A stretch of DNA of 24,076 nucleotides, from positions 1 through 24,076 of IMG/VR virus record IMGVR_UViG_3300008220_000074; one strand, written 5' to 3'. The stretch comes from a virus. Below, piece by piece: positions 2,061 to 22,965 of this stretch. The notes under the pieces were generated by a model. That model was not told the DNA's origin. It made no database searches and was given only the letters and a program-made list of their open reading frames with translations. Positions within the stretch are counted from its first letter, which is position 1. Each line of letters begins with the position of its first letter. The position numbers and the translations under genes are program-made.

Positions 2061-3802
2061 AACTTGACGAATTAATCGCATATCTCTGGAAGGAAATACA
2101 CGGGGAGGACATTCCCTCCGATGTTCTTCAAGAGTTGATTAGCCTCACGAGTATGATCTACATGGGGACGGCTTCCCTGTCTGTCGTAAGGGAGATTTTA
2201 CAAGAGAAGAAGGCCGAGCAGGAAGTTGCGGGATTGGACCCGAGAGAGACCGACGAAGGTCTCATGTTCCACTTCCTCGATGAAACCTTACCGTATTTGG
2301 TCATGAGTGTGTACACAAATACGGATGTCGAGCCGAATTTACTTGAGCCAATTGGGTTCGTACCAACGCGAGAACAGATGGCCGATGCGTTGGGTCTGCC
2401 CGTGGAGGCTGTGGAGTATGGGGAGGAGGATATTGAGCGCTTCACTGAGAAGCTCCCCCCAGCGCAATCGGAAGTGGTTGCTGGGGTGGATGTGGCCCAG
2501 GGACAAGTTATTACTCCCAATGCCTTTGAGGACTTGACAAGGCAATTCCACGCGTGGTTGAATGTGATGTATGGGATGGCGGAACTCCCCGCCGAGCATC
2601 AAGACCTCGCACAGTTGAGGTCCTACCTATCGGAGAAGGATGAACTCCCCTCAATTGACAGTCTCGAGGCAATCGAACTTATCAACGCGATGAATAGTGG
2701 GGATTTGGAATTCACGAGTCCGAGATTGAACCTCTTCATGCGAACATTGGGGTTTCCCGTCGCCCCGGGGAGTGATGTCCTTGAGGCTGGGTTTGAAGAT
2801 GTGATCAATCGCCTGAGGGCGCAGGGGACGCCTCGCGTATTTGTAAATTATGTCAAGGAGCATAAGCAAGATTTACTCCAAGAGTGGAAAATAATTGCGC
2901 GGGCTGACCCCACATTGCTTCTCGTGGGGACACCTGGTTTTGTGAACTACTTTTTTGGGGTGGAGAATCAGCCGGGTCTCCTAGATACAACCTTTCGGCC
3001 CCAATTCCAGGCGGAACTCAATGAGACAATTGCCCGATTGCAGGAGACTCAAGCCAAGGAACAGGCCGAGGTATTTAAGCGGCATGAGGCTGAGCAAGAG
3101 GCGCTCCGCCAGATTGAGACTCGAGAGACTGAACGGCGCATTGCCCAAAATGTCCCCACGAGGCTTGAGGTATTTAAGATTTTGGGTGGGGATGCAACTC
3201 GCCTCTCAATGCAAGACCCCTATGATCTAACCTTGTGGGATATTTCGAATGCCCTGACGCTTGAGGCGGTGAGTCTCTATGAGGATGACCCCGAGACGTT
3301 TAACCTCGTGAGCTATACGAGCAATGTTTTTACGGAGGAGCAACTACCCACTCGGGAACAATTTACCACTATTCGTGCGGGGGAGGAGGAGACACCCACT
3401 CAGCTAACGCCCCAGGAAACTCAGCAACTCTTGAGTACACGCCTACGGGCAGAGTTGTCGGTTGCGCCACCACGCGCCCAGGCGGATGTTGCCGCGCAGC
3501 TTGAACAGCAAGGGGCACAGGCCCTTGCCGAATTCCAGTCCAGCCAGCGGGATATCGAAAGGCAACTCCTCGTCCTTGAGCAAGAGCAGAAGAAATTTGA
3601 GGAAACGTCCCCTCTTGGGATTACCGGCGAGGCGTTATCCCCACCGGATGAAGCTCGTATACGCTTTGGTCTGAGTACGCAGATGGAGGCTCAACGGAGT
3701 GCCCTTTTGAGAAATCTCGGAACCTTCGAGGAGTTCCTCCGCAAGCGTAAGTTTGATGTCACGATTGCACCCAAGGCCCAACGAACAATTATGGTGTTTT
3801 GA
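2057..3802 (+). CDS. Virion-region protein of unknown function, 581 aa, helical
   Basis: I do not recognise this protein. It starts at ATG 2057 inside the portal gene's last codons (4-bp ATGA overlap), so translation is probably coupled to the portal. It is acidic and mostly helical. Residues about 320-375 are rich in Glu, Gln, Arg and Ala (ETQAKEQAEVFKRHEAEQEA and following) and should form a coiled coil. A second Gln/Glu-rich helical region lies at about 455-535. The C-terminus is short and basic. No signal peptide or membrane segment is visible. Its place between the portal and the 1604-aa gene suggests a minor head or internal virion protein, but it could also act in assembly. Confidence 0.6.
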   Translation: MKLDELIAYLWKEIHGEDIPSDVLQELISLTSMIYMGTASLSVVREILQEKKAEQEVAGLDPRETDEGLMFHFLDETLPYLVMSVYTNTDVEPNLLEPIGFVPTREQMADALGLPVEAVEYGEEDIERFTEKLPPAQSEVVAGVDVAQGQVITPNAFEDLTRQFHAWLNVMYGMAELPAEHQDLAQLRSYLSEKDELPSIDSLEAIELINAMNSGDLEFTSPRLNLFMRTLGFPVAPGSDVLEAGFEDVINRLRAQGTPRVFVNYVKEHKQDLLQEWKIIARADPTLLLVGTPGFVNYFFGVENQPGLLDTTFRPQFQAELNETIARLQETQAKEQAEVFKRHEAEQEALRQIETRETERRIAQNVPTRLEVFKILGGDATRLSMQDPYDLTLWDISNALTLEAVSLYEDDPETFNLVSYTSNVFTEEQLPTREQFTTIRAGEEETPTQLTPQETQQLLSTRLRAELSVAPPRAQADVAAQLEQQGAQALAEFQSSQRDIERQLLVLEQEQKKFEETSPLGITGEALSPPDEARIRFGLSTQMEAQRSALLRNLGTFEEFLRKRKFDVTIAPKAQRTIMVF

Positions 3803-6800
3803 TGCCAGACCCAATTGATAAGATTCTCGAAGAAAATATACGATCATTGGATGACCGTCCGCAGGCTCCCAAGCCTACGGCAACGCCCCTACCCAAACAA
3901 TCTCAGAATCTCCTACCAAAACTCCTGGGGGATGAGGACCCCGACAAGCTGTCTCGTGACTTGTTTATGCGGCGGCTTCTCTCGGAGGATGGGCTGGAGA
4001 CTTTTGAGGGGGACTTCACCTCCTCGGATCGTTCTATTTGGAGTAAAATTGGGGGGGATCTAGCGTCCAGGGGTAAAAGCACCGGCGAGTCTCTCCTCGC
4101 GCCGATAAAGGAGGGGTATAGGCTCTTCCGTGGAACTGAGGACATCTTCACGGGTTTGGGGATGATCGGTGGAAGGATGTTGAAGGGAGTTGCTGGGGCA
4201 CCCGTGGGCCTAGGGAGAATGGCACTAGGCCAGGATGATCCGCTCGGGGGAACTAAGCGTGATTTTACCCAAGCCCTAGAGTGGACGGCGGCGTACCGGA
4301 GCGCCCTGGCGGAGGGGTTCTCCCTTGGCGGCACGAAGGACTTCTTCGCGGGAAATTCCCAATTCCTCAATGAGAAGCTCGCTCGGGCGATGGAGTCAGA
4401 GCCGAGCGCCTTTTGGGGCGAGAAGTTCGTCGCGAGTTTGGTTCATCCGGTGAATCTTGTGGGGTGGGGTACGGGTAGTGCTGTTGGCCGCATCGGTACG
4501 AGAACCCTCCTCGGGCGTACCCCCTTCATTGGAAAGATTATAGAGCCCTATGACTTGGGGTATATCACCTTTACAAATAAGACAATCGACCTCGCGTTGA
4601 GGCCACTGGGAAGCCTCCTCCGTACGACCACATCCCCAGCCCTCCAAGCAGTAAGCCGCGCACCCCAACCCGTCATCGTTAAGACGACCGTACTGAAGAA
4701 TGGCCTTCTCAATTACGGACGGATGTTCTTTGGGGAGGCGATAAACTCCTCGCAACCCGCCGTTACCGCGCAATACATTGGGAAGTTGCTCCGCCGGTCG
4801 AAACATGCAATTGAGGCGAGAGGTACCCCTCAGGATATAAGTATTCGGGGGGCGCTCGATATGCTCCGCCCAGTCACCCCCGATGAGTTATTCACTAGAG
4901 TTGGGAAGGTTGAAACGGGTCTCCTCCCAACGTTACTCGGTGATACGAAGAACCTCACCCCCAAACAACGAAGCGCTTGGATGAAGACACTCCGCAATGA
5001 TCACAATTTCGTCTGGTCTATGAATTCACTCCTGGATGATCTAAGCACGAATATTGACACTTCCGAGACGACTATCGGGGTATTTGCGGATAGGATTGCC
5101 CGCCTCGTTGGGAACTCCTGGGATACAAAACAGACTTCCCGCCTACGTGCATGGGCGAACGCTCGCCTGGTCGAACGTAAGAGCTACATTGAGAAGGTGA
5201 AGCGACTCACCCCTCAACAAGCCCACGAGGACATTGCCAATCACGCCGCCGAGCTTTACGGTACGCGCATTCGTATGGGGAATGAGCGCATCACGTACAT
5301 GCAGGGGCTTGTTGGCGGCATCATGGATAAGATTGACCCCATATATCAGACTGTCTGGCGGAAGGGCATCGAGAGGTATCTGGCGAGACCGAGTGTTGAG
5401 TTTATTCTCAATTTTGGATTATACCCCGTGGGGAATGCCCTGGAGGAATCCTTCTTGGCGGTCGCTGGGGGGACTGTCCCCGGAATGACAGATAGGGTAG
5501 CCCTCAACCGCATGATGGCGGGGTTGCCGCTCGCCGACCCTACCCTCGGAACCGACGTGGGGATGGCCATCGTGGAGCGTCTCATGGCGGGGAGTCAGCG
5601 CTTGCCGAGCCCTCGCTCTGTTGGGAAAATGAGGAAAATTAAGGCCCCCGTGCAATTCCTCAAGCGTGGGTTTATTGAAATTAGTAATGGGTGGTCACAG
5701 GCGATTAGGAGAAATGCCCTCGGGAAGTTCTTCCTCCAGGAACTCGCGAGTGATTATCCAGTCCTTGCGGGGGCAAACCCCCCACTCGCCCAGGTACTCG
5801 AGAGGGTGCCCGCTGTTCCCCACCAGGAGCAACTCTTCGAGAAGGCACTCGCTGAGGTGGTTAAGGGGGGTGACAGCCAGCTTGCAGCCCTAAAGCGTGA
5901 GTTCACCCACAAGGCCATTAGTCGTGGCAAGATGGAATCGATTGCCGCAATTGGCGACAACCTCGATCGTAGTACAAAGGAGCTATTTAAGCAGCGGATA
6001 CGTTCGGAGAAAATTCCCGACCCCACAGAACTCTTCGAGGATATGATTAAGAATGAGCGTGATGCGATGTTGCGCCATCCGGAGATGCTTGAGGAGGCAT
6101 TTGAGGGGTTGATTAAGGAACTCGAGAACTTCAAGGTGACGAACTTAGAGGACTTCCGACTTGTCGATGCGGCCCTGGAGTCATGGCAGAAGCGACTCTC
6201 CGAAAGTATGCACGATATTATGACAAGTTCTGCTGAGGTTGCCACGAGAGTCTCGCAAGAATTGCGTGAACGTGGCGAGGGGGAAGTTCATGAGATTTGG
6301 GTTGAGAACCTCAATATTATCGGGCGGGCAATCGAGTTCGCGGAGAATGTCGCAAGGCACACCTCGGAGGATGTCCTTCGGAAGCTTGCGAAAGACGCTG
6401 GGGTGGAGAGTGGCGCAGCGCTCGACTGGGCTATCGCCCGGACGAAGGAATTCGACTTCTGGACACAAATCTGGCGTAAGGACCTGGAGATACGCACCGC
6501 ACTGGTGAATCGTGGAGCAAGGCCTTGGGAAATTAGGGGTGCCCGCGCCGTCCACTGGAATGAAGTAAACTCCGAATGGGCGAGGCTCGAGGGTGAGAAA
6601 CTCTTCTTCAAAACGAAGGCGATGAACCCCTCTGCGGCGATCCCCTTCGAGATGATGCCGGATGTGCAGCGCCTCGCCGAGACGGAAATTTGGAAGACCG
6701 AGTGGGGTAAGCGGATGGCGCAGATGGAAGAGATGCGTCAGATGATGAATAAGGAGATGACAAATCCCCTCTTCACAATCGCACATGAGGAGGAAGTGGC

Positions 6801-8616
6801 CGAGTGGATAAGGGAACTCGCCAAGCACGTAGGCCCGAATCCCGCCATCTCCAAGATGCGGATGGAAGCGGGGGCTCGTGCCAATAAGAGGTTCAAGCGG
6901 GCGTTCGTTGACTTCAACCACGATGACGCGATTATTTATGCCTTGAGGCATATCTATCCCTTTGCCCTATATGAGACACTCATCTGGGCAAAGATGGTAC
7001 GATTGGGCATTCAACACCCCGCACTTATGAATATCTATGGCCCGGAGGGAGCCTACTGGACGGAGACGGACACTGGCTACATAAATATGGCGAGTATGCC
7101 GACACAGGTGAGCCCCGCCCGCCTCTTCGGGTTCAACCGGATACGCAGGAGTTTCTTCACGCCTAGTAATATCCCACTGAGTAATGTGGGTGTTGCGGGG
7201 AAGGTCGAGAAATTCATGAAGATGGGAGAAAGGGGTGGATTCTACCCCGGGTGGACCTTCCTGTTGCCGTTCGAAGCCGCCACCGGAATGCAAGACGTTG
7301 GGAAGTTTATGCCGAGTACAATGGGGTCATTGTTCTATGGCCTCGTGGGAACGGGTCTCTACGCGGGGATGCCCGGAGCCCAGAAAATCTTCGAGAAGAT
7401 GCCCGATGACTTCAAAGATTATTATACAAATGTAATGCTCTTTGCCAATGGGGTTGATTTACAAACGGCCACCCCCGAGCAACGGCGAGAAGCCCAAAAG
7501 CAGGTCTCGCAATTTCTCTTCGCCGAAAACTTCATGAGTATGTTTAGACTCCGACCCAATCGTGTCACTGAGGTGCGTGAGATGGCGAGGGTTCTTGTTG
7601 CCGCCGTTGGGGGCATAACAATCGAAGAACTCCGCCAAATTGAGGAGAGTGGGAGAAGTATCTATGAGGTGGTGCAGTTGGGTCCGAGGCAACGTGAACT
7701 CTTGAGTCGGAGCATTGGGCAATATGAAGACTTATTTTTGCTGACGTTGCCTCTGCGGGCGGAAGATGCCAAAGATGCGATGATACGCGACTTGGAATTC
7801 TGGAAGCTCATCGAGCAAGCGCGTGATACCAAGTCTGATACCCTCAATATGGCAAATGTGGGACTAGAGGGTGGGCAGATGCATCCAGATTTTTGGAAGC
7901 GCATACGCAAGGAGGCAATTACGAGGTTCCAAGGCGTTTGGGAAAACATGGAAGCGCGTACTCTCGATCCCAAAGATCGGTTCTTTGGGGTACCCCTCAC
8001 CCTTGAGCAGCGGGAACGCCAACGGGAGAAGCTCAAACAACGGACTCTCTCCCTATCCCCAGTGGACGAGGCCCTCTACTTCATGTTCAATGAGGTGGAG
8101 ATCGAATCCTTCACCCACGAGGCTACGGGTCAGGTGGACTGGAATGGATACGCTCGTGCCCAGGATGTGGTGCTCAATCGCTACCCCCCACACATCCAAA
8201 GCGAAGTCCATAGCTACCTCCGCTCACGCAAGACCTCCACCGAACGAGAGTTCGAACAAGGGCATGAAGAATGGGGCTACTTCGACACGAGCAGGGCGAT
8301 TGATTGGGCCGAGAAGCACCTCGGGTTCTCTCGGGAGCAACTCGAACGAGCGGATAAGTCGCTTAATGATCGGAAGCTCCAGGAATACCTAGAGATACGT
8401 GCTGGGGCGAATGTTGATTTGGCCCGCCTCACCACGAGTGGTGACCCGCTCCTACGGATTCTTGCTAGTGCTACCCAGCAATATCGCCAGTCGCTCAAAC
8501 TCACAAAGGAACCCAAACTCGATGCATGGCTGAGGAAATTCTATCCGGCGAGTGCTGGGGGAGGGCTCCAAGTGACCCACCCAGTCTTGCAATCACTCTC
8601 GGAAACTGGTACTTGA
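3802..8616 (+). CDS. Very large virion-region protein (1604 aa), candidate internal or DNA-ejection protein
   Basis: The stop of the preceding gene and this ATG share one base (TGATG at 3800-3804), so ATG 3802 is preferred over the in-frame TTG at 3799. The N-terminus is Pro-rich; residues about 110-160 and 210-235 are glycine-rich and hydrophobic (for example GLGMIGGRMLKGVAG), which could insert in or lie on membranes. The centre is charged and helical. Near residue 1035 a stretch with FVDFNHDDAIIYALRH, then a PF motif and WAKMVRLGIQHPAL, resembles a pattern I associate with large phage structural proteins, from memory only. No peptidase, transglycosylase or polymerase motif is evident. Size and position between portal and scaffold, with no tape measure in the window, suggest an internal protein ejected with DNA. 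This is inference. Confidence 0.5.
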   Translation: MPDPIDKILEENIRSLDDRPQAPKPTATPLPKQSQNLLPKLLGDEDPDKLSRDLFMRRLLSEDGLETFEGDFTSSDRSIWSKIGGDLASRGKSTGESLLAPIKEGYRLFRGTEDIFTGLGMIGGRMLKGVAGAPVGLGRMALGQDDPLGGTKRDFTQALEWTAAYRSALAEGFSLGGTKDFFAGNSQFLNEKLARAMESEPSAFWGEKFVASLVHPVNLVGWGTGSAVGRIGTRTLLGRTPFIGKIIEPYDLGYITFTNKTIDLALRPLGSLLRTTTSPALQAVSRAPQPVIVKTTVLKNGLLNYGRMFFGEAINSSQPAVTAQYIGKLLRRSKHAIEARGTPQDISIRGALDMLRPVTPDELFTRVGKVETGLLPTLLGDTKNLTPKQRSAWMKTLRNDHNFVWSMNSLLDDLSTNIDTSETTIGVFADRIARLVGNSWDTKQTSRLRAWANARLVERKSYIEKVKRLTPQQAHEDIANHAAELYGTRIRMGNERITYMQGLVGGIMDKIDPIYQTVWRKGIERYLARPSVEFILNFGLYPVGNALEESFLAVAGGTVPGMTDRVALNRMMAGLPLADPTLGTDVGMAIVERLMAGSQRLPSPRSVGKMRKIKAPVQFLKRGFIEISNGWSQAIRRNALGKFFLQELASDYPVLAGANPPLAQVLERVPAVPHQEQLFEKALAEVVKGGDSQLAALKREFTHKAISRGKMESIAAIGDNLDRSTKELFKQRIRSEKIPDPTELFEDMIKNERDAMLRHPEMLEEAFEGLIKELENFKVTNLEDFRLVDAALESWQKRLSESMHDIMTSSAEVATRVSQELRERGEGEVHEIWVENLNIIGRAIEFAENVARHTSEDVLRKLAKDAGVESGAALDWAIARTKEFDFWTQIWRKDLEIRTALVNRGARPWEIRGARAVHWNEVNSEWARLEGEKLFFKTKAMNPSAAIPFEMMPDVQRLAETEIWKTEWGKRMAQMEEMRQMMNKEMTNPLFTIAHEEEVAEWIRELAKHVGPNPAISKMRMEAGARANKRFKRAFVDFNHDDAIIYALRHIYPFALYETLIWAKMVRLGIQHPALMNIYGPEGAYWTETDTGYINMASMPTQVSPARLFGFNRIRRSFFTPSNIPLSNVGVAGKVEKFMKMGERGGFYPGWTFLLPFEAATGMQDVGKFMPSTMGSLFYGLVGTGLYAGMPGAQKIFEKMPDDFKDYYTNVMLFANGVDLQTATPEQRREAQKQVSQFLFAENFMSMFRLRPNRVTEVREMARVLVAAVGGITIEELRQIEESGRSIYEVVQLGPRQRELLSRSIGQYEDLFLLTLPLRAEDAKDAMIRDLEFWKLIEQARDTKSDTLNMANVGLEGGQMHPDFWKRIRKEAITRFQGVWENMEARTLDPKDRFFGVPLTLEQRERQREKLKQRTLSLSPVDEALYFMFNEVEIESFTHEATGQVDWNGYARAQDVVLNRYPPHIQSEVHSYLRSRKTSTEREFEQGHEEWGYFDTSRAIDWAEKHLGFSREQLERADKSLNDRKLQEYLEIRAGANVDLARLTTSGDPLLRILASATQQYRQSLKLTKEPKLDAWLRKFYPASAGGGLQVTHPVLQSLSETGT

Positions 8617-15555: not shown

Positions 15556-17519
15556 TGCCTAGTGAAATTATTCTCAATGGGCAGCGTTACGTCACCACGG
15601 AGGTGCAGCGGGAACTCCTCGCGGAATTTAACAACCCCTTCCGCACAACGGGAACACAGAAACGCGCCGATAGGACCCTCCTTAGCTCCTACGAGTATCG
15701 GCCCAAGCTCAAGGGTTTCGGGCGCAAGGTTTCGAATCTCGAGGACCCGGAATCCCTCCTTCGCTTTTGGGATAGCCGCGTAGAGACACGCTTCCCCGGA
15801 GCGGTGGTCTTACCCATCCTTAATGAATCTGTCACAATTTCTTCTCCAGAAGACTTTGCACGAGTGGCAGTACACTTTAAGGGAAAACTTTGGGTAGCCT
15901 TCGAGAAATTATACTCTAGTGCGAATATAACGAGTGTCGCCTCCAGAACCTTCGATGCTGCCACCCCCGGGTGGACTGGTGGGGGTACACGAGTGAGTGA
16001 TGCCAACTCTGGGGGGATGCGGGTATTCGATATGGTAGTTCATAAGGGTAAACTAGTATTTATTGGCACTTCTAGTGTCTCGGCTGACTTCGGTAACCCC
16101 CGCACTTACTCAAGCTCGACAGGAACCTCTTGGTCTGAGAACTCGGATACGGGATTATTGTCCTCATCAATTTGGGCTGAACAAGGAGTGCGAAATCTAC
16201 ATGGGGACCAACTGGCCAAGCTCGTGAGCTTTGGCAATACCCTCGTACTAGCCCTCAATGAAATTGATGTTACATCAGTGTGGAAGAGTACAGACGCCGC
16301 TGCAAACTGGACGCAAATAGCTAACGACCTGTCGAGTGCGGGGGATATCAATGGTAAGGCATCCTATTTTGACCAGGCTAATGCTACCGCACCAGTATTT
16401 GCCACCGAGAATGCACTGTACGCTGTTGACATCACCAACAATGAAATTGATATCCTAATAGACTACTCCCACCGTAGTCACTCTGAAAATGGCCGGGGGA
16501 TGGTTCTCCACAACTCCCGCCTCTATATTCCAATGGGAGACGGCGGCGTTCTCGAGTACTTCTGGGTGGGCGACCATGCCGAAGTCCGGGAGGTTGGACC
16601 AAATCGTGATGACGGGCTTCCGGCAGCACGGCGAGGCCATGCCCTCAGTGGTGTTGGGATTGACAGGTGGGTATTCTTCACCTATGGGGGACATACTGCA
16701 ACCACCAACGCGAGTATCCTTGCACTTGACTTGGAGGATTACTCATGGCATAGTATTTACTATGAGAGTGATGCCAATGTAGAGTTGCCATTCATCACGG
16801 GTAGTTCCGAGAATGATGATGTGGTGAGACTTATCTTCACTGAGGAAGCGATTAGCCCTACATCTAATCCTATGCACATGCTTACGGAAATCCTAGCGAG
16901 TCCAGACAGTGGCGTCACGATTAAACGCCAGAGTAGCGGTGTCTTACAACTACCCACATTTGATGGGGGGATGCCGGAAGTCCCCACGAACTTCCTCGAG
17001 GTGGTACTTGAGGCGGAGAGTCTCAGTGCAACAACCTCTGGCGAGTGGATTGACTACGATTACGGGACGAACGGCGCAGCCTACACCACGACAGATTTGG
17101 GAGACTTCCTGAGTGGAGACAAGGACTTAACCTTTGGGAGCGGCCTAGGCATTTCCGCCAAGACGCTCAACCAACAACTCACACTCCATCGCGGGAGCAC
17201 AAACACCAACACTCCCCTCCTACGAAACCTAGTGTTGAATTATCTCAAGGTTCCCGCAACCCGTTACATCTATCGTATTGTGATTGACCTAGAGGAAACC
17301 GCTCGAACCTACCAGATAACCCCCGAGGACGTTATAACGAATCTTCAAACGGTCCAAGATAGCGTTACGATGGTCTCGTTCAAGTACTCGAGAGCCGCCG
17401 CTGTGAATGTGAAGGCCCTACCCGAGTGGGCATGGCGTTTCGCCATCGGGGAAGCTAACTACGAGCACGAGGGGATGCGCGAGGGGGAACTAGCGCTCGT
17501 TCTGGTAAAGCTTCTGTAA
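15555..17519 (+). CDS. Tail protein with Asp-box/beta-propeller-like centre, 654 aa
   Basis: The ATG has GGGGAG five bases upstream and overlaps the previous stop. The N-terminal 60 residues are basic and of a separate type. Residues about 100-430 contain regularly spaced beta blades: an Asp-box-like SSSTGTSW at 186-193, KSTDAAANWTQI at 244-255, then HNSRLYIPMGDGGVLEYF and a kelch-like RRGHALSGVGIDRWVFFTYG. Asp-boxes occur in sialidase-type propellers. The C-terminal 150 residues are beta-rich and end in a region with RYIYRIVIDLEETARTYQ. It could be a tail hub/nozzle or spike component that meets the host surface. No complete set of sialidase catalytic residues is recognised, so binding rather than hydrolysis is more likely. 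The last 65 bases are also covered by the opposite-strand deoxyribosyltransferase gene. Confidence 0.65.
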   Translation: MPSEIILNGQRYVTTEVQRELLAEFNNPFRTTGTQKRADRTLLSSYEYRPKLKGFGRKVSNLEDPESLLRFWDSRVETRFPGAVVLPILNESVTISSPEDFARVAVHFKGKLWVAFEKLYSSANITSVASRTFDAATPGWTGGGTRVSDANSGGMRVFDMVVHKGKLVFIGTSSVSADFGNPRTYSSSTGTSWSENSDTGLLSSSIWAEQGVRNLHGDQLAKLVSFGNTLVLALNEIDVTSVWKSTDAAANWTQIANDLSSAGDINGKASYFDQANATAPVFATENALYAVDITNNEIDILIDYSHRSHSENGRGMVLHNSRLYIPMGDGGVLEYFWVGDHAEVREVGPNRDDGLPAARRGHALSGVGIDRWVFFTYGGHTATTNASILALDLEDYSWHSIYYESDANVELPFITGSSENDDVVRLIFTEEAISPTSNPMHMLTEILASPDSGVTIKRQSSGVLQLPTFDGGMPEVPTNFLEVVLEAESLSATTSGEWIDYDYGTNGAAYTTTDLGDFLSGDKDLTFGSGLGISAKTLNQQLTLHRGSTNTNTPLLRNLVLNYLKVPATRYIYRIVIDLEETARTYQITPEDVITNLQTVQDSVTMVSFKYSRAAAVNVKALPEWAWRFAIGEANYEHEGMREGELALVLVKLL

Positions 17520-17970
17520 CGAGTAGTCCAGCTACGACATTTAGTCCGGACTCTAGTGACCCAACCCGAAATCCCGCACACTCAAGCACCATCGGATGCT
17601 CATAAATTGAGTCTTCTTTGAGAATAAGTACTAGCGGTTTGCGATAGGCCCATGCCCACGCAATCTCCATGATAGTGCCTATGGTGGGTCGATCTGGGTA
17701 TTCTCTTGCATGTTCAAGATTAGCCAGCACCACATCACACCGCATCACATCCCAGTGATCACGTGTGTTGATGCCCTTTTGGGATGAGAGGGCCTCGTCC
17801 TCATAACTTCCCTCGATACGTGCTACCCCCGCGAGATGCTCCTTTGAGCGCATAGGGTCTAAACAGGTAATCCCCTTAGATGCTAGGTATTTAATCGCCT
17901 CTTGCCGCCAGTCGGTACTTTCATCGTAGCTCAAGCCAGCAATCGGCCCCGCCAAGTAAACACTCTTCAT
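17455..17970 (-). CDS. Nucleoside 2-deoxyribosyltransferase-like protein
   Basis: The 171-aa product begins with the family signature VYLAGPI (residues 4-10) and continues with DWR at 20-22, which in this family follows a substrate loop. DVVLAN (79-84) ends a core strand, and GTIMEIAWAWA (98-108) carries Glu102, the position of the nucleophile that forms the deoxyribosyl intermediate. The family moves deoxyribose between bases or cuts deoxynucleoside monophosphates, so a role in nucleotide salvage or base exchange during replication is likely. The last 20 residues are Pro/Arg-rich and lie over the end of the tail gene on the other strand. The ATG overlaps the previous stop (ATGA), with GAGGA just upstream. 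The family call is good; the substrate is unknown. Confidence 0.8.
   Translation of the reverse strand: MKSVYLAGPIAGLSYDESTDWRQEAIKYLASKGITCLDPMRSKEHLAGVARIEGSYEDEALSSQKGINTRDHWDVMRCDVVLANLEHAREYPDRPTIGTIMEIAWAWAYRKPLVLILKEDSIYEHPMVLECAGFRVGSLESGLNVVAGLLVTEALPERALVPPRASPRARS
17543..17552. repeat. 10-bp perfect palindrome near the convergent junction
   Basis: AGTCCGGACT reads the same on both strands and lies 24 bases after the tail gene's stop, inside the deoxyribosyltransferase gene. It has no following T-run, so it is not a standard terminator. It may be chance. Confidence 0.25.
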
Positions 17971-18625: not shown

Positions 18626-18878
18626 GTATTTCCTCCGAGAATGTGATCGTATCCACGTGGACGTTTCGAAGGGTACGTAAAACCCTTGGGGGCTGCTCTT
18701 GCATCGTGGGGGCCTGTCCGGGAGCTACCAGCGGCATACTCGCACCCTCCACCGTAATTTCTAACTGGAGTGTGTTGTAATTCATCTCCGCATGAATAAT
18801 ATTAAGCTCGGGTAGGCCCAAGAAGTGTAGCAACTTCTTCGAATCCACTCGATACTTCCCAACTCGTCTACCCTCCAT
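18606..18878 (-). CDS. Unknown 90-aa protein
   Basis: The chosen ATG (18878) lies 11 bases inside the end of the phosphoesterase gene, with GGGGG eight bases upstream; a longer frame to 18911 has no better site and would lie in that gene. The product starts KYRVDSKKLLHFLGLPELN and continues with strands LQLEITVEGASMPLV, then a Pro/Gln linker and an acidic end. The pattern resembles short phage proteins of unknown role encoded near replication genes. No function can be given. Confidence 0.6.
   Translation of the reverse strand: MEGRRVGKYRVDSKKLLHFLGLPELNIIHAEMNYNTLQLEITVEGASMPLVAPGQAPTMQEQPPRVLRTLRNVHVDTITFSEEIHDDPLG
18631..18636 (-). promoter_or_regulatory. Ribosome binding site of the 101-aa gene
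   Basis: GGAGGA lies five bases before ATG 18625 and inside the last codons of the 90-aa gene. It confirms that the 101-aa frame is translated despite its overlap with two neighbours. Confidence 0.7.
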
Positions 18879-19602
18879 AGAGTTTGCCCCCGTACATAAA
18901 TTTCCCACCAATTATGGGAATCTGTTCCGCGTGAAACCTATCTCTATCCACATGCACGAGTGTGAAGCCGTGTTGCCAGTCGGGATAGGCAGTCCACCCA
19001 GGTTCAAGCAAACACAAACACCCATTCTCAAGCCAGACCTTTGGCCCAGTCACATCCCTCCGGTAATATGTTCCAAGGCGATGCGTATGACCATTGATTC
19101 CACTCACGCCAAACCGATCCATCATTGCGCGGGCGGTGTAGGCACTGTGACGTCGTGCTACATCCCCATGCATCAGGAAGAAACTCTCGTACTTATTGTG
19201 AAATTTGCCATAGGGATAAGCTACATGCTCAAATCCAAGCTCAGATAGATGGAGTAACTCGGGAATGGTCAATCCCCCAATGTCCTTGAGTTCGGGGGCG
19301 GTGTGCCAGAGATAACGCCTGAGGCGATCCTCATGATTCCCCTCGATGAATATCCTCTTCGCGTTAGGAATCACCTTGACAAATTTTTCAAGCTCCCCCA
19401 CTTGCTCCTTGATTTCTTCACTCAACTTGGAAACTCTCGAGGGGTCTCGTGCATGGGAACTAATCGCGTAGAAGTCTCCCCAGTCTCCAATTATATACAG
19501 GTGGGTTGGCTGTATCCCCCTAATGAACTCCCGTGTAATCTTTAAGGCAGATTCATCTTGGAAGGGTATCTGCGTATCGCTAATGATTGCGAGTAAATCC
19601 AT
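18868..19602 (-). CDS. Calcineurin-like metallophosphoesterase
   Basis: The 244-aa protein has all the signature blocks of the family in order: SDTQ at 8-11, GDWGD at 39-43, GNHED at 88-92, MHGD at 144-147 and NGHTHR at 170-175. These bind two metal ions and the phosphate. The first block has Gln11 where the usual DxH has His, a change often met in phage relatives. It could be a nuclease, a phosphatase or a phosphodiesterase; the neighbouring polymerase and nuclease suggest work on nucleic acid or nucleotides. The length fits a single catalytic domain. Its ATG shares one base with the stop of the 40-aa zinc gene (TAATG). Confidence 0.85.
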   Translation of the reverse strand: MDLLAIISDTQIPFQDESALKITREFIRGIQPTHLYIIGDWGDFYAISSHARDPSRVSKLSEEIKEQVGELEKFVKVIPNAKRIFIEGNHEDRLRRYLWHTAPELKDIGGLTIPELLHLSELGFEHVAYPYGKFHNKYESFFLMHGDVARRHSAYTARAMMDRFGVSGINGHTHRLGTYYRRDVTGPKVWLENGCLCLLEPGWTAYPDWQHGFTLVHVDRDRFHAEQIPIIGGKFMYGGKLYGG

Positions 19603-19724: not shown

Positions 19725-19951
19725 ATTGGATTCTCCAACATAATTGTGAGTAGGCGCTCCTGCTCGATTCCGAAGTATTGACAGAACGCAACTACCCATT
19801 CGCTTGTGTTTAACCACTCGAGTGCTTCCTCCTTGAGTCTTGCTGGATCCCTTTGGGACACATGAAACATTGACATAGAGGGACTATGCAAGTCTTTCCA
19901 TGCCTCCATGATTATCCCAACAGCTAGTCGTTCATACGCTCTTGGGTTCAT
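19667..19951 (-). CDS. Unknown 94-aa helical protein
   Basis: The ATG lies 20 bases inside the polymerase gene, with GGAGG three bases upstream within that gene's last codons. The product is helical: MNPRAYERLAVGIIMEAWKD at the front, then LKEEALEWLNTSEWVVAFCQ and YFGIEQERLLTIM. The 'eAleWL.t.eW...c...Gie.erl' pattern resembles a small phage protein family of unknown function that I know only from general memory. It is the first gene after the internal promoter at 20029-20057. No function is assigned. Confidence 0.65.
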   Translation of the reverse strand: MNPRAYERLAVGIIMEAWKDLHSPSMSMFHVSQRDPARLKEEALEWLNTSEWVVAFCQYFGIEQERLLTIMLENPMWESLTTILDQPANVVTVK

Positions 19952-22271
19952 AATCCTCCATACTTCCCCACTTTTTCCCCACCTTCACATGCACCTCGGC
20001 TGGGATATCTAACTCCACAGCTTCAACCATTATAGCAGTTAAGGTTCTGGCTGTCAAGTCTAGGTGGGTCTCATTTACCTCGACAATTAACTCATCATGA
20101 ATTTGGAGAATAAGAGGAAGCTTTGCCTCATCACACCTTACCATCGCCAACTTCATGAAGTCTGCTGCTGTACCTTGGATTGGATGGTTGATTGCCTGAC
20201 GAAATCCTCGCTCACCATCTCCCGCAGGAATGTAACGTCGTCGCCCCCATAAGGTAGAAATGAAACCATCTCGCTGCCAGGAAATACGAGTATCTTCCAT
20301 GTATTCAGCAATTCCAGGAAAGCGCGAGAGGTATGTCTCGATAATTTGAGCTGCCTCAGCCTCTCCCATACTCGCTCGTTTGGACAGACCATGAGCTGTG
20401 AGCCCATAGTTCGTACCCAGAAGTACCCATTTAGCCGTATCGTACATGGGGGTGCCCCGCCGAATTTCTTGTTCGTCCATATTGAACACCAACATTCCAA
20501 CGTAGGTGTAGGGTGAGATTCCTTGTCTAAAGGCATTGAGTAGCCCATCCTCCTTGGCAATATGTGCCATTATGCGTGGTTCAATTTGGGAATAGTCTGC
20601 CGCTACGAAGATGTTCCCGGGCCTTGCGATGAAGGCATCACGGAGCGAGGGGGTGATTTGTTGGAGGTTAGGGCTACTACTCGAAAGGCGTCCTGTGGCG
20701 GTCGCCCCCTCAGCGTCATCTTCTTCACCCCCCCTCGTCTGGTTGAAACTCGGATGCACCCTATCGCCATAAGCTCGTAGCTTCTTGGTGTAGGAAAGTT
20801 CCGTCTCGAGTTTCCGATAGGATTGTATGAGGGGTACAACCTCATGCTCATGTGCTAGGGCTTGGAGTGCGGTCTTACTTACAGCGGGTTTCTTTTTCGT
20901 GGTCCTTTCATGAATAGGTAAGTGAAGATCATTATATAGAAGCTTAGCTAATTGCGGGCCGCTACTGAGATTCAACTCGGGGGGTGCCCCGCTCACCCGT
21001 TGAATCTCCCCCCGCCGCTCACTCAGATCTAGCTCAAGAACTCCCTGTCGCTTAAGTAACCAAGATTGATCGAGTCCAATACCCCTCCGCTCCATTCGAA
21101 GAATCGCGGGGACGAGTGGCCCCTCAATATTAAAGAGGAGATGCTGCTCCTGTGTTGTCATTACGGGGAGGGCAATTTCTAGCGCATACCTTCGAGTAAA
21201 GTCCGCATCCTCTCCCGCATACTGGATGAGTTGCTCCCGTGGAAGATCGCTTATTTGTGGGTCGGGCATCGGCCCAAGTTCCCCCTCAAGATATGCTCGA
21301 AGAGCGGGCCTCCGCTTGATTGTCTCATAGGGATTACTTGGTAAGGTGGCGAGACTCTTCGCCCACTTTTTACTAGGGGTGAACCCCTGCATCCATTCTT
21401 CCACTTGCCGCCACCGCTCTTCACTAAGCATCTTGTCAAGTCTGTCCATGTCCTTGCCGAAGTGCTTGAGTACGAGGAGTTTCAAGCCAAGGCGGGACTC
21501 CCCCAAGATATACGCCGCAAGCATTGTATCGAGAAGTCTATCATACTCGAGGGTAATCCCCGCCCTCTCGAGTACATCTAGGTCATACTTAGCATTATGC
21601 ATAATGAGCGTTGAGGTACGTATACATTCGGGGATGCCCCAAGCTGCCTCATGAGGTGATACCGAGATGGATACCCCAATGAGACGCCTGTCCTCTAAGG
21701 AGATTGTTTCCGTATCCACGGCCATGAAGCTAGCTTCTATGGAGGGGTGTTCCCCCAAGCCGACCGTCGTTGGTGCATTCTGGATACCCCTATATAGCTT
21801 ATTAGGCAACTCTCTCCAATCTCGCTCGATGACACTCCGGAGATTGGGATTATGCATACAGGCTGCTGGGTGATACATCGGAACAAACATCCTCCCATCA
21901 CGTTCCCGGGGAAACCCATGAACCATTCCAACGGGCTCCCCTGGGAAGAACACTTGGATGGCAGTATCTCCCAAGAGTATAATAACCCTCGGGTCAACGC
22001 ACTCAATCTCACTAAGAAGCTCTGGCAAGGCACGTACAATCTCCAGCTTTGTGGGCTTGCGATTATTAGGGGGGCGCTGCTTGAAGACGTTCGTAAAATA
22101 GGTCTCGCCTTCATTCACCCCCGCTAACGGCATGAGTGTTTGGCGGAGGAGCTTCCCAGTGGGGCCAATTAGGGGCACCCCGAACTTGTCCTCTTGGGCA
22201 CCCGGAGCCTCCGCAATACACATCCATTCAGCCTTACTTGGACCGTCTCCCGGAACATACCTACCTAGCAT
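19932..22271 (-). CDS. Family A DNA polymerase fused to an N-terminal uracil-DNA-glycosylase-superfamily domain
   Basis: Residues 1 to about 155 match the UDG superfamily (family 4 type): AEAPGAQED at 20-28, GVPLIGPTG at 31-39, TNVFKQRPPNNR at 60-71 and YHPAA at 133-137. The likely catalytic Glu21, Asn61 and His134 are kept, but the Fe-S cysteines are not. Residues about 180-360 form a DnaQ-like 3'-5' exonuclease: DTE at 186-188, HNAKYD at 225-230, YAGED at 351-355. The polymerase follows: motif A DYSQIEPR 559-566, motif B YDTAKWVLLGTNYG 610-623, motif C HDE 725-727. This is the phage replicase. ATG 22271 has GAGGT upstream and overlaps the nuclease by 11 bases. Motif B has Leu618 and Tyr610 where E. 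coli Pol I has Phe762 and Arg754. Confidence 0.93.
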   Translation of the reverse strand: MLGRYVPGDGPSKAEWMCIAEAPGAQEDKFGVPLIGPTGKLLRQTLMPLAGVNEGETYFTNVFKQRPPNNRKPTKLEIVRALPELLSEIECVDPRVIILLGDTAIQVFFPGEPVGMVHGFPRERDGRMFVPMYHPAACMHNPNLRSVIERDWRELPNKLYRGIQNAPTTVGLGEHPSIEASFMAVDTETISLEDRRLIGVSISVSPHEAAWGIPECIRTSTLIMHNAKYDLDVLERAGITLEYDRLLDTMLAAYILGESRLGLKLLVLKHFGKDMDRLDKMLSEERWRQVEEWMQGFTPSKKWAKSLATLPSNPYETIKRRPALRAYLEGELGPMPDPQISDLPREQLIQYAGEDADFTRRYALEIALPVMTTQEQHLLFNIEGPLVPAILRMERRGIGLDQSWLLKRQGVLELDLSERRGEIQRVSGAPPELNLSSGPQLAKLLYNDLHLPIHERTTKKKPAVSKTALQALAHEHEVVPLIQSYRKLETELSYTKKLRAYGDRVHPSFNQTRGGEEDDAEGATATGRLSSSSPNLQQITPSLRDAFIARPGNIFVAADYSQIEPRIMAHIAKEDGLLNAFRQGISPYTYVGMLVFNMDEQEIRRGTPMYDTAKWVLLGTNYGLTAHGLSKRASMGEAEAAQIIETYLSRFPGIAEYMEDTRISWQRDGFISTLWGRRRYIPAGDGERGFRQAINHPIQGTAADFMKLAMVRCDEAKLPLILQIHDELIVEVNETHLDLTARTLTAIMVEAVELDIPAEVHVKVGKKWGSMEDYEPKSV
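20029..20057 (-). promoter_or_regulatory. Perfect-consensus sigma-70 promoter inside the polymerase gene
   Basis: Read on the minus strand, TTGACA (20057-20052), a 17-bp spacer and TATAAT (20034-20029) match both hexamers at all 12 positions, and TGC just before the -10 adds an extended -10. The start should fall near 20022, about 70 bases before the 94-aa gene. The motif lies in codons for conserved-length polymerase C-terminal sequence, so it was kept within a coding constraint. It would supply the phosphoesterase to deoxyribosyltransferase genes independently of the polymerase. Confidence 0.8.
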
Positions 22272-22965
22272 TTTTACCTCGTAGAAAGGAGAATAATCTT
22301 TTGGCCCTCATCGTACCAAGCCCCGGCACCTTTATCAAGTCGGCTAGTTTTGCCGCACACAATTGTCTCATTGTAGGATAACACTCATACAACGCCGCTG
22401 CAAGCTTAGGCCCGATGCCTTCAAACCCCCTATATGCCTGTTGTGTAGGAGGAACTCGGTCGCTCACCCACTGATTGGGCAATAAGCCTCCCCAGGTAAA
22501 ACTTTCCTTCTGGGAACTTCGCCACGCCGCATCGAGTAGGCAAGCCGTCTGGAAGGCATCACCCGTAAAGAGAGGAATTACCCCCGCACCATAAATGATA
22601 CTCCATTGGAGTCCAAGTACCGAGGCGATACCCCAACGTGTCTTGCGATAGGGCATGAGCACTGTATCCATACGATACTTCCGAGCACCCCCGCTCAATG
22701 CCACCTTCCCATCAATTACGAGGGGAAAACCCTCGAGAAGCATAAACGCCACATCGGATGCCTCGCGTAGGGATTCGACTGAGGCGAGTCTACCATCTCG
22801 GGCGGAACTTAGAAAATCTCCCGTACTCTTACGTTCAATGAGAAGATATCGCCCAGCCTTATCATACCATGCGTAGTCGCCGTGGGTGAGGCGTTGCACC
22901 GTATGGGGTGAACGCAACATCTCGGGGATGCCACTAGGTACTTCTCTATCATCACAAAGAATCAT
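22261..22965 (-). CDS. ERCC4/XPF-type structure-specific nuclease with helix-hairpin-helix C-terminus
   Basis: The 234-aa protein has the XPF-family active site: DDRE at 5-8, GDY at 29-31, IERKSTGDF at 43-51 (the ERKxxxD signature) and DGRL at 57-60. The C-terminal 55 residues contain two helix-hairpin-helix motifs, around GFEGIGPKLAAALYE and IKVPGLGTMRAKRLF, which bind DNA without sequence preference. Such enzymes cut branched DNA, flaps and forks; here it could process replication or recombination intermediates before packaging. No helicase domain is attached. The gene lies just before the polymerase and overlaps it by 11 bases. ATG 22965 lacks a clear ribosome site and lies in the end of the 32-aa gene, so translation is probably coupled. 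Confidence 0.88.
   Translation of the reverse strand: MILCDDREVPSGIPEMLRSPHTVQRLTHGDYAWYDKAGRYLLIERKSTGDFLSSARDGRLASVESLREASDVAFMLLEGFPLVIDGKVALSGGARKYRMDTVLMPYRKTRWGIASVLGLQWSIIYGAGVIPLFTGDAFQTACLLDAAWRSSQKESFTWGGLLPNQWVSDRVPPTQQAYRGFEGIGPKLAAALYECYPTMRQLCAAKLADLIKVPGLGTMRAKRLFSFLRGKNAR

Follow-up and report, generated by a model that had tools for sequence, protein, structure and literature searches.

Phage replicative DNA polymerases of family A that carry a uracil-DNA glycosylase (UDG) domain are already known and widespread, and we describe here a UDG-exonuclease-polymerase gene from IMG/VR virus record IMGVR_UViG_3300008220_000074, in which the whole stretch analyzed, 24,076 nucleotides, is referred to as the window. 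The fusion was reported in 2020 for phage PaBG and its group (PMC7412058). Like the window gene, the DNA polymerase I of these PaBG / 'Lupandier' jumbo phages joins an N-terminal UDG, a 3'-5' exonuclease and a family A polymerase in a single chain; the phages are far larger, and the accessible part of that report takes excision as given and holds no discussion of iron-sulfur (Fe-S) ligands or catalytic residues. The gp31 DNA polymerase of Bacillus phage SPO1 and its relatives has the same architecture and likewise lacks the Fe-S ligands, but its pocket has decayed further (Met replaces the uracil-stacking Phe, and Ser the catalytic Asn), its gene holds an intron, and SPO1 encodes a dUMP hydroxymethylase, the gene for which lies near the polymerase. 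A UDG fold is also found near the N-terminus of PDB entry 9QHS ('phiLo family-A DNA polymerase with modified template', release date 2026-03-25), which differs in having 1142 residues and shares 25% identity with the window within the domain. In the vaccinia E9-A20-D4 holoenzyme, a UDG superfamily protein, D4, is similarly found inside a viral replicase. D4 is a separate subunit bridged by A20, and both its UDG family and the polymerase family are other than those of the window gene.

The explanation that we favor, tentatively and at close to even confidence, is that a captured family 4 UDG would have become a built-in part of the replicase that engages DNA, with uracil capture likely persisting in the window. 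The domain in the window has lost all four positions that bind the Fe-S cluster in family 4 enzymes, and comparison with related phages points to this loss having occurred more than once.

Fold, family and residues of the N-terminal domain

An ATG at 22271 opens a 779-residue open reading frame (ORF) on the minus strand (22271-19932, window coordinates), in which Pfam places three domains in a single frame with E-values far beyond chance: UDG at residues 7-146 (7.7e-23), 3'-5' exonuclease at 183-279 (4.8e-12) and DNA_pol_A at 412-769 (9.6e-86). The active sites of the exonuclease (D186, E188, D248, Y351, D355) and of the polymerase (D559, D726) are intact and invariant in alignment A8, and the full-length model (pLDDT 90.6) has Bst and Klenow polymerases as its structural matches. 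With all three domains within one ORF, this is a fusion polymerase of the SPO1 and PaBG kind. The initial annotation, made from the sequence alone, had proposed a UDG-superfamily domain fused to a phage replicative polymerase and had named SPO1 as a precedent, and both proposals were borne out.

That annotation assigned residues 1-155 to the UDG fold with the motif order of family 4. An AlphaFold2 model of residues 1-159, built with an alignment of 63 domains, reached a pLDDT of 97.7 and a pTM of 0.92, and Foldseek ranked family 4 UDGs first among its PDB matches (TM ~0.9; 4zbx, E = 6.4e-18; 1ui0, TMq 0.91, rmsd 1.4), followed by UdgX and then 9QHS. The sequence match to S. tokodaii UDG4 (4zbx) has an E-value of 1.3e-30. 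Together with the fold, a PF03167 score of 81.6-86.2 bits against a curated cut-off of 24.3 places the domain in the UDG superfamily, whereas the NCBIfam family 4 model TIGR00758 is narrowly missed (domain 122.3 bits, whole protein 117.5, cut-off 125.3). An UdgX identity was ruled out by an NCBIfam score of 71.2 bits against 189.95 and by the presence of AEAPG and TNVFKQRPPNNRKP in the window in place of the GEQPG motif and KRRIH R-loop, although the folds are alike (TM 0.81-0.90). UdgX carries an Fe-S cluster, another feature that the window domain does not share. The KRRIH R-loop and GEQPG motif are distinctive of UdgX, in which His109 of the loop is covalent (PMC10359453).

Like the family 4 enzymes of S. 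tokodaii (4zbx), T. thermophilus (1ui0) and T. maritima (1vk2), the window domain retains the catalytic Glu, Asn (TN(x)V block) and motif B His, as Glu21, Asn61 and His134. Those enzymes differ in being stand-alone, in holding a [4Fe-4S] cluster on four Cys, and in having Phe where the window has Leu34. Motif A of family 4 is GE(A/G)PG (PMC10359453); in the window it reads AEAPG, with Glu21 kept and the first Gly, found in 162/166 aligned domains, changed to Ala20. The motif B Arg, found in 132/166, is His140. At the Fe-S sites the N-terminal CxxC is absent, the Cys of the KCRPP block is Gln65 and the fourth ligand is Ala81; the remaining Cys residues of the domain (18, 91 and 137) fall outside the ligand positions. 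The assignments of Glu21, Leu34, Asn61, Gln65 and His134 and the absence of the CxxC agree with the initial annotation, which had considered the cluster probably lost; Ala20 and His140 are additional deviations that it had not listed. A mis-called start concealing a CxxC was ruled out, since the 12-codon open frame upstream of ATG22271 (GPKDYSPFYEVK) contains no Cys, and sequencing error was ruled out by the alteration of three separate ligand regions. As the cluster ligands are missing, along with the stacking Phe and the initial Gly of motif A, the domain is best described from its residues as a family 4 derivative rather than a strict member.

Distribution of iron-sulfur ligand loss among fusion phages

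Scans of IMG/VR and phage records returned ~138 further UDG-polymerase loci (designated by L numbers), counted where the UDG shared an ORF with the polymerase or with a long stretch of further sequence; the total includes a few overlapping copies of the same contig. Carriers include SPO1 and its relatives, PMBT14, Lebethron, Yersinia phage P744, Microcystis phage Mel-JY34 and spring-water phages. A single-sequence scan with the UDG domain as query gave no matches, and a scan of genome contigs gave only distant polymerases. The fusion is thus not unusual, and ligand loss recurs within it: of the non-redundant domains (fused, split or cut, without that of the window), 53 retain two or all of three ligand sites and the other 97 one or none. 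Some fusions (L008, L036 and others) have the complete family 4 residue set. We found no description in the literature of repeated Fe-S cluster loss in such fusions.

In a tree of the exonuclease-polymerase region, a large Fe-S-less clade, here called clade B, stands apart from a group that mostly keeps the ligands. The window was placed in the latter group, as sister to L273 (SH-aLRT 94), which by sequence spacing has the CxxC, His at the third ligand site and Cys at the fourth. Forcing the window into clade B was 71 log-likelihood units worse (p-AU 0.002), and a single loss common to the window and clade B was rejected by this AU test. Because of the sister placement, the gene order held in common with L273 and the AU rejection, the loss in the window was most likely an event separate from that in clade B. 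Three Cys plus His occur at the ligand sites of L268, L269, L272, L273, L275 and L280, a pattern that may represent either a Cys3His cluster or an intermediate step of cluster loss.

The initial annotation had held that a full set of Fe-S cysteines in close homologs would argue against cluster loss. Full sets do exist in relatives (L028, L031, L034), but these homologs are distant (30-47% identity, as is L273), and because the window's own positions are changed, the loss in the window stands.

Possible roles of the domain in the replicase

To avoid the bias of UDG-based search patterns, clade B was also sampled on polymerase motifs alone. The domain was present in 76/78 of these loci, and in the two others the polymerase match lies close to the contig start. 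None of the sampled domains has the third and fourth Fe-S ligands, and the pocket shows Glu in 63/72, Phe in 66/72, Asn in 38/72 (Tyr in 17) and His in 39/72 (Thr in 17). The UDG domain therefore stays even after pocket decay, and since it is retained when Asn and His are lost, a role beyond catalysis is likely in clade B. Several clade B loci (L214-L221, L226, L237, L250, L257, L259) combine Tyr at the Asn site with Thr at the His site and keep Glu, Phe and the domain. Among the 97 Fe-S-less domains of the census, Phe is kept in 96 and His in 77, columns outside the search patterns; Asn (88) and Glu (97) were part of those patterns, so that the Glu count and in part the Asn count are inflated, and neither was taken to indicate constraint. 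Sampling around the window on the polymerase found 16/80 fused, with Asn in most and Glu and His in many, and the pocket residues Glu, Phe, Asn and His are maintained in the window's relatives.

In 17 loci the arrangement is split, with UDG and exonuclease in one ORF and the polymerase in another, and some of the ORF ends overlap. Since UDG and exonuclease share an ORF in all 17, the UDG is tied to the exonuclease, which suggests a replicase of two subunits, with UDG and exonuclease in the same one. The split loci include L106, L112, L131, L162, L164, L167, L168, L175, L202, L241, L244, L250 and others; their UDG-exonuclease ORFs are ~340-440 residues long, with the polymerase ORF next at gaps of -75 to ~600 nt, of which the longer ones could be introns.

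In the sequence of events that we propose, a family 4 UDG was captured as the N-terminal module of a phage replicative family A polymerase and would act there as an integral DNA-engaging part beside the proofreading exonuclease. After fusion, the window lineage would have lost the Fe-S cluster while Glu21, Asn61 and His134 were retained. Because these three residues are retained, the sequence suggests that uracil recognition persists in the window, perhaps weakened by Leu34; the module would most likely still capture uracil in DNA near the polymerase, by binding or slow excision, with uracil not being copied, and would have an additional, pocket-independent holding role. Across the group as a whole, the common role appears to be pocket-independent, and most simply DNA holding beside the exonuclease. 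DNA engagement, uracil binding and coupling to synthesis or proofreading are functions that we infer. Two sets of observations weigh against the proposal. Leu34, Ala20 and His140 are departures from the family 4 sequence that may disable the uracil pocket; Leu seldom replaces the Phe, being found in L297, where Glu, Asn and His are intact, and in L205, L207 and L232, where these sites are decayed. The polymerase tree also has many long branches and moderate deep support.

The same three deviations would fit a module that is purely architectural, holding DNA or bracing exonuclease and polymerase for processivity or folding, with the pocket residues of the window phage as relics. The persistence of the domain in clade B, where Asn and His are each lost in about half, favors such a role, as does vaccinia D4, which serves as a processivity factor independently of catalysis (PMC1936997). 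We nevertheless think a purely architectural module rather unlikely, given that Glu21, Asn61 and His134 are all retained in the window and in most near relatives and that Phe is more frequent in the polymerase-selected clade B sample than expected of an unused pocket. Less likely again is a bolder version of capture, in which phage family A replicases would repeatedly have made the family 4 UDG an Fe-S-free read-ahead sensor, one that would bind uracil or an altered template base without removing it and would gate synthesis against proofreading. If true, family A replicases would thereby possess an equivalent of the uracil pocket known from archaeal family B polymerases.

Ordinary repair, by an active glycosylase tethered to the polymerase and excising uracil from template or product with the cluster dispensable, would fit the catalytic residues present in the window, the existence of fusions in which the family 4 set is complete and the fidelity role proposed by the PaBG authors (PMC7412058). 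We judge it improbable, as an abasic site ahead of the polymerase would itself stall synthesis unless repair were coupled, and many clade B relatives are incapable of such activity. It is very doubtful that the domain serves to recognize a modified base of the phage's own DNA, 5-hydroxymethyluracil or some other, or to distinguish it from uracil: SPO1 pairs its dUMP hydroxymethylase gene with a degenerate pocket, pyrimidine hydroxymethylases are annotated near the polymerases of some fusion phages and the title of 9QHS names a modified template, but no gene of this kind was recognized in the window, Pfam lends the hydroxymethylase label no support, and the association tracks a single lineage, with Fe-S-less fusions almost devoid of it.

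Gene neighborhood and significance

Positions of the fusion gene, its domains and residues, and its neighbors are listed in Table 1. The ERCC4 nuclease gene adjoins the fusion also in L273, L028, L031 and L034, and L273 has the gene order of the window, with the nuclease before and the phosphoesterase after the fusion gene.

Table 1. Features of the fusion locus in window coordinates
Feature	Position	Strand	Basis
Whole gene: UDG, 3'-5' exonuclease, family A DNA polymerase (779 aa)	19932..22271	-	Pfam; full-length model pLDDT 90.6
UDG-fold domain, residues 1-155	21807..22271	-	Pfam PF03167; model pLDDT 97.7; top PDB folds are family 4 UDGs
3'-5' proofreading exonuclease domain, ~residues 183-365	21177..21725	-	PF01612 over 183-279; invariant residues in alignment A8
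Family A polymerase domain, residues 412-769	19965..21038	-	Pfam PF00476; invariant D559, D726 in A8
Glu21 codon, motif A (AEAPG)	22209..22211	-	Sequence/alignment
Leu34 codon, uracil-stacking Phe site	22170..22172	-	Sequence/alignment
Asn61 codon (TNVF)	22089..22091	-	Sequence/alignment
Gln65 codon, third Fe-S ligand site (KCRPP to KQRPP)	22077..22079	-	Sequence/alignment
Ala81 codon, fourth Fe-S ligand site	22029..22031	-	Sequence/alignment; 7 residues N-terminal of conserved Glu88
His134 codon, motif B (HPAACMH)	21870..21872	-	Sequence/alignment
Upstream neighbor: ERCC4 nuclease with helix-hairpin-helix, overlaps fusion gene start	22261..22965	-	Pfam
Downstream neighbor: metallophosphoesterase	18868..19602	-	Pfam; same position in L273

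Thymidylate synthase-like genes lie near 28/53 and deaminase genes near 30/53 of the Fe-S fusions, and each lies near 1/98 of the Fe-S-less ones, the locus lengths being similar. This association tracks lineage and is not independent evidence. As it follows a single lineage, and as neither thymidylate synthase-like, deaminase nor pyrimidine hydroxymethylase genes were recognized in the window, a 24-kb virus fragment, modified-thymine genes were set aside as functional proof. Cas4-like and Sak4-like genes also cluster near Fe-S fusions (L008, L009, L016-L018 and others), with almost none near Fe-S-less fusions. In L274, L302, L305, L320, L327, L329 and L336, where the phage family A polymerase is unfused, separate UDG genes occur within ~8 kb of it. 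Elsewhere in the window are a nucleoside 2-deoxyribosyltransferase-like gene (17455-17970, minus strand; Pfam 3.9e-12), possibly of phage nucleotide metabolism, and a 1605-residue ORF among structural genes (3799-8616, plus strand), perhaps an internal virion protein.

The interest of these loci lies not in the fusion itself, which was already known, but in a natural series of Fe-S loss and in retention after pocket decay. The function of the cluster in family 4 UDGs, structural or redox-sensing, has been debated (PMC9266487), and natural fusions that lose it more than once yet keep the pocket, in an apparent series of ligand states from four Cys through three Cys plus His to none, open this issue to experiment. 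A repair fold has become fixed as part of the replicase in many phages, among them lineages with decayed catalytic residues.
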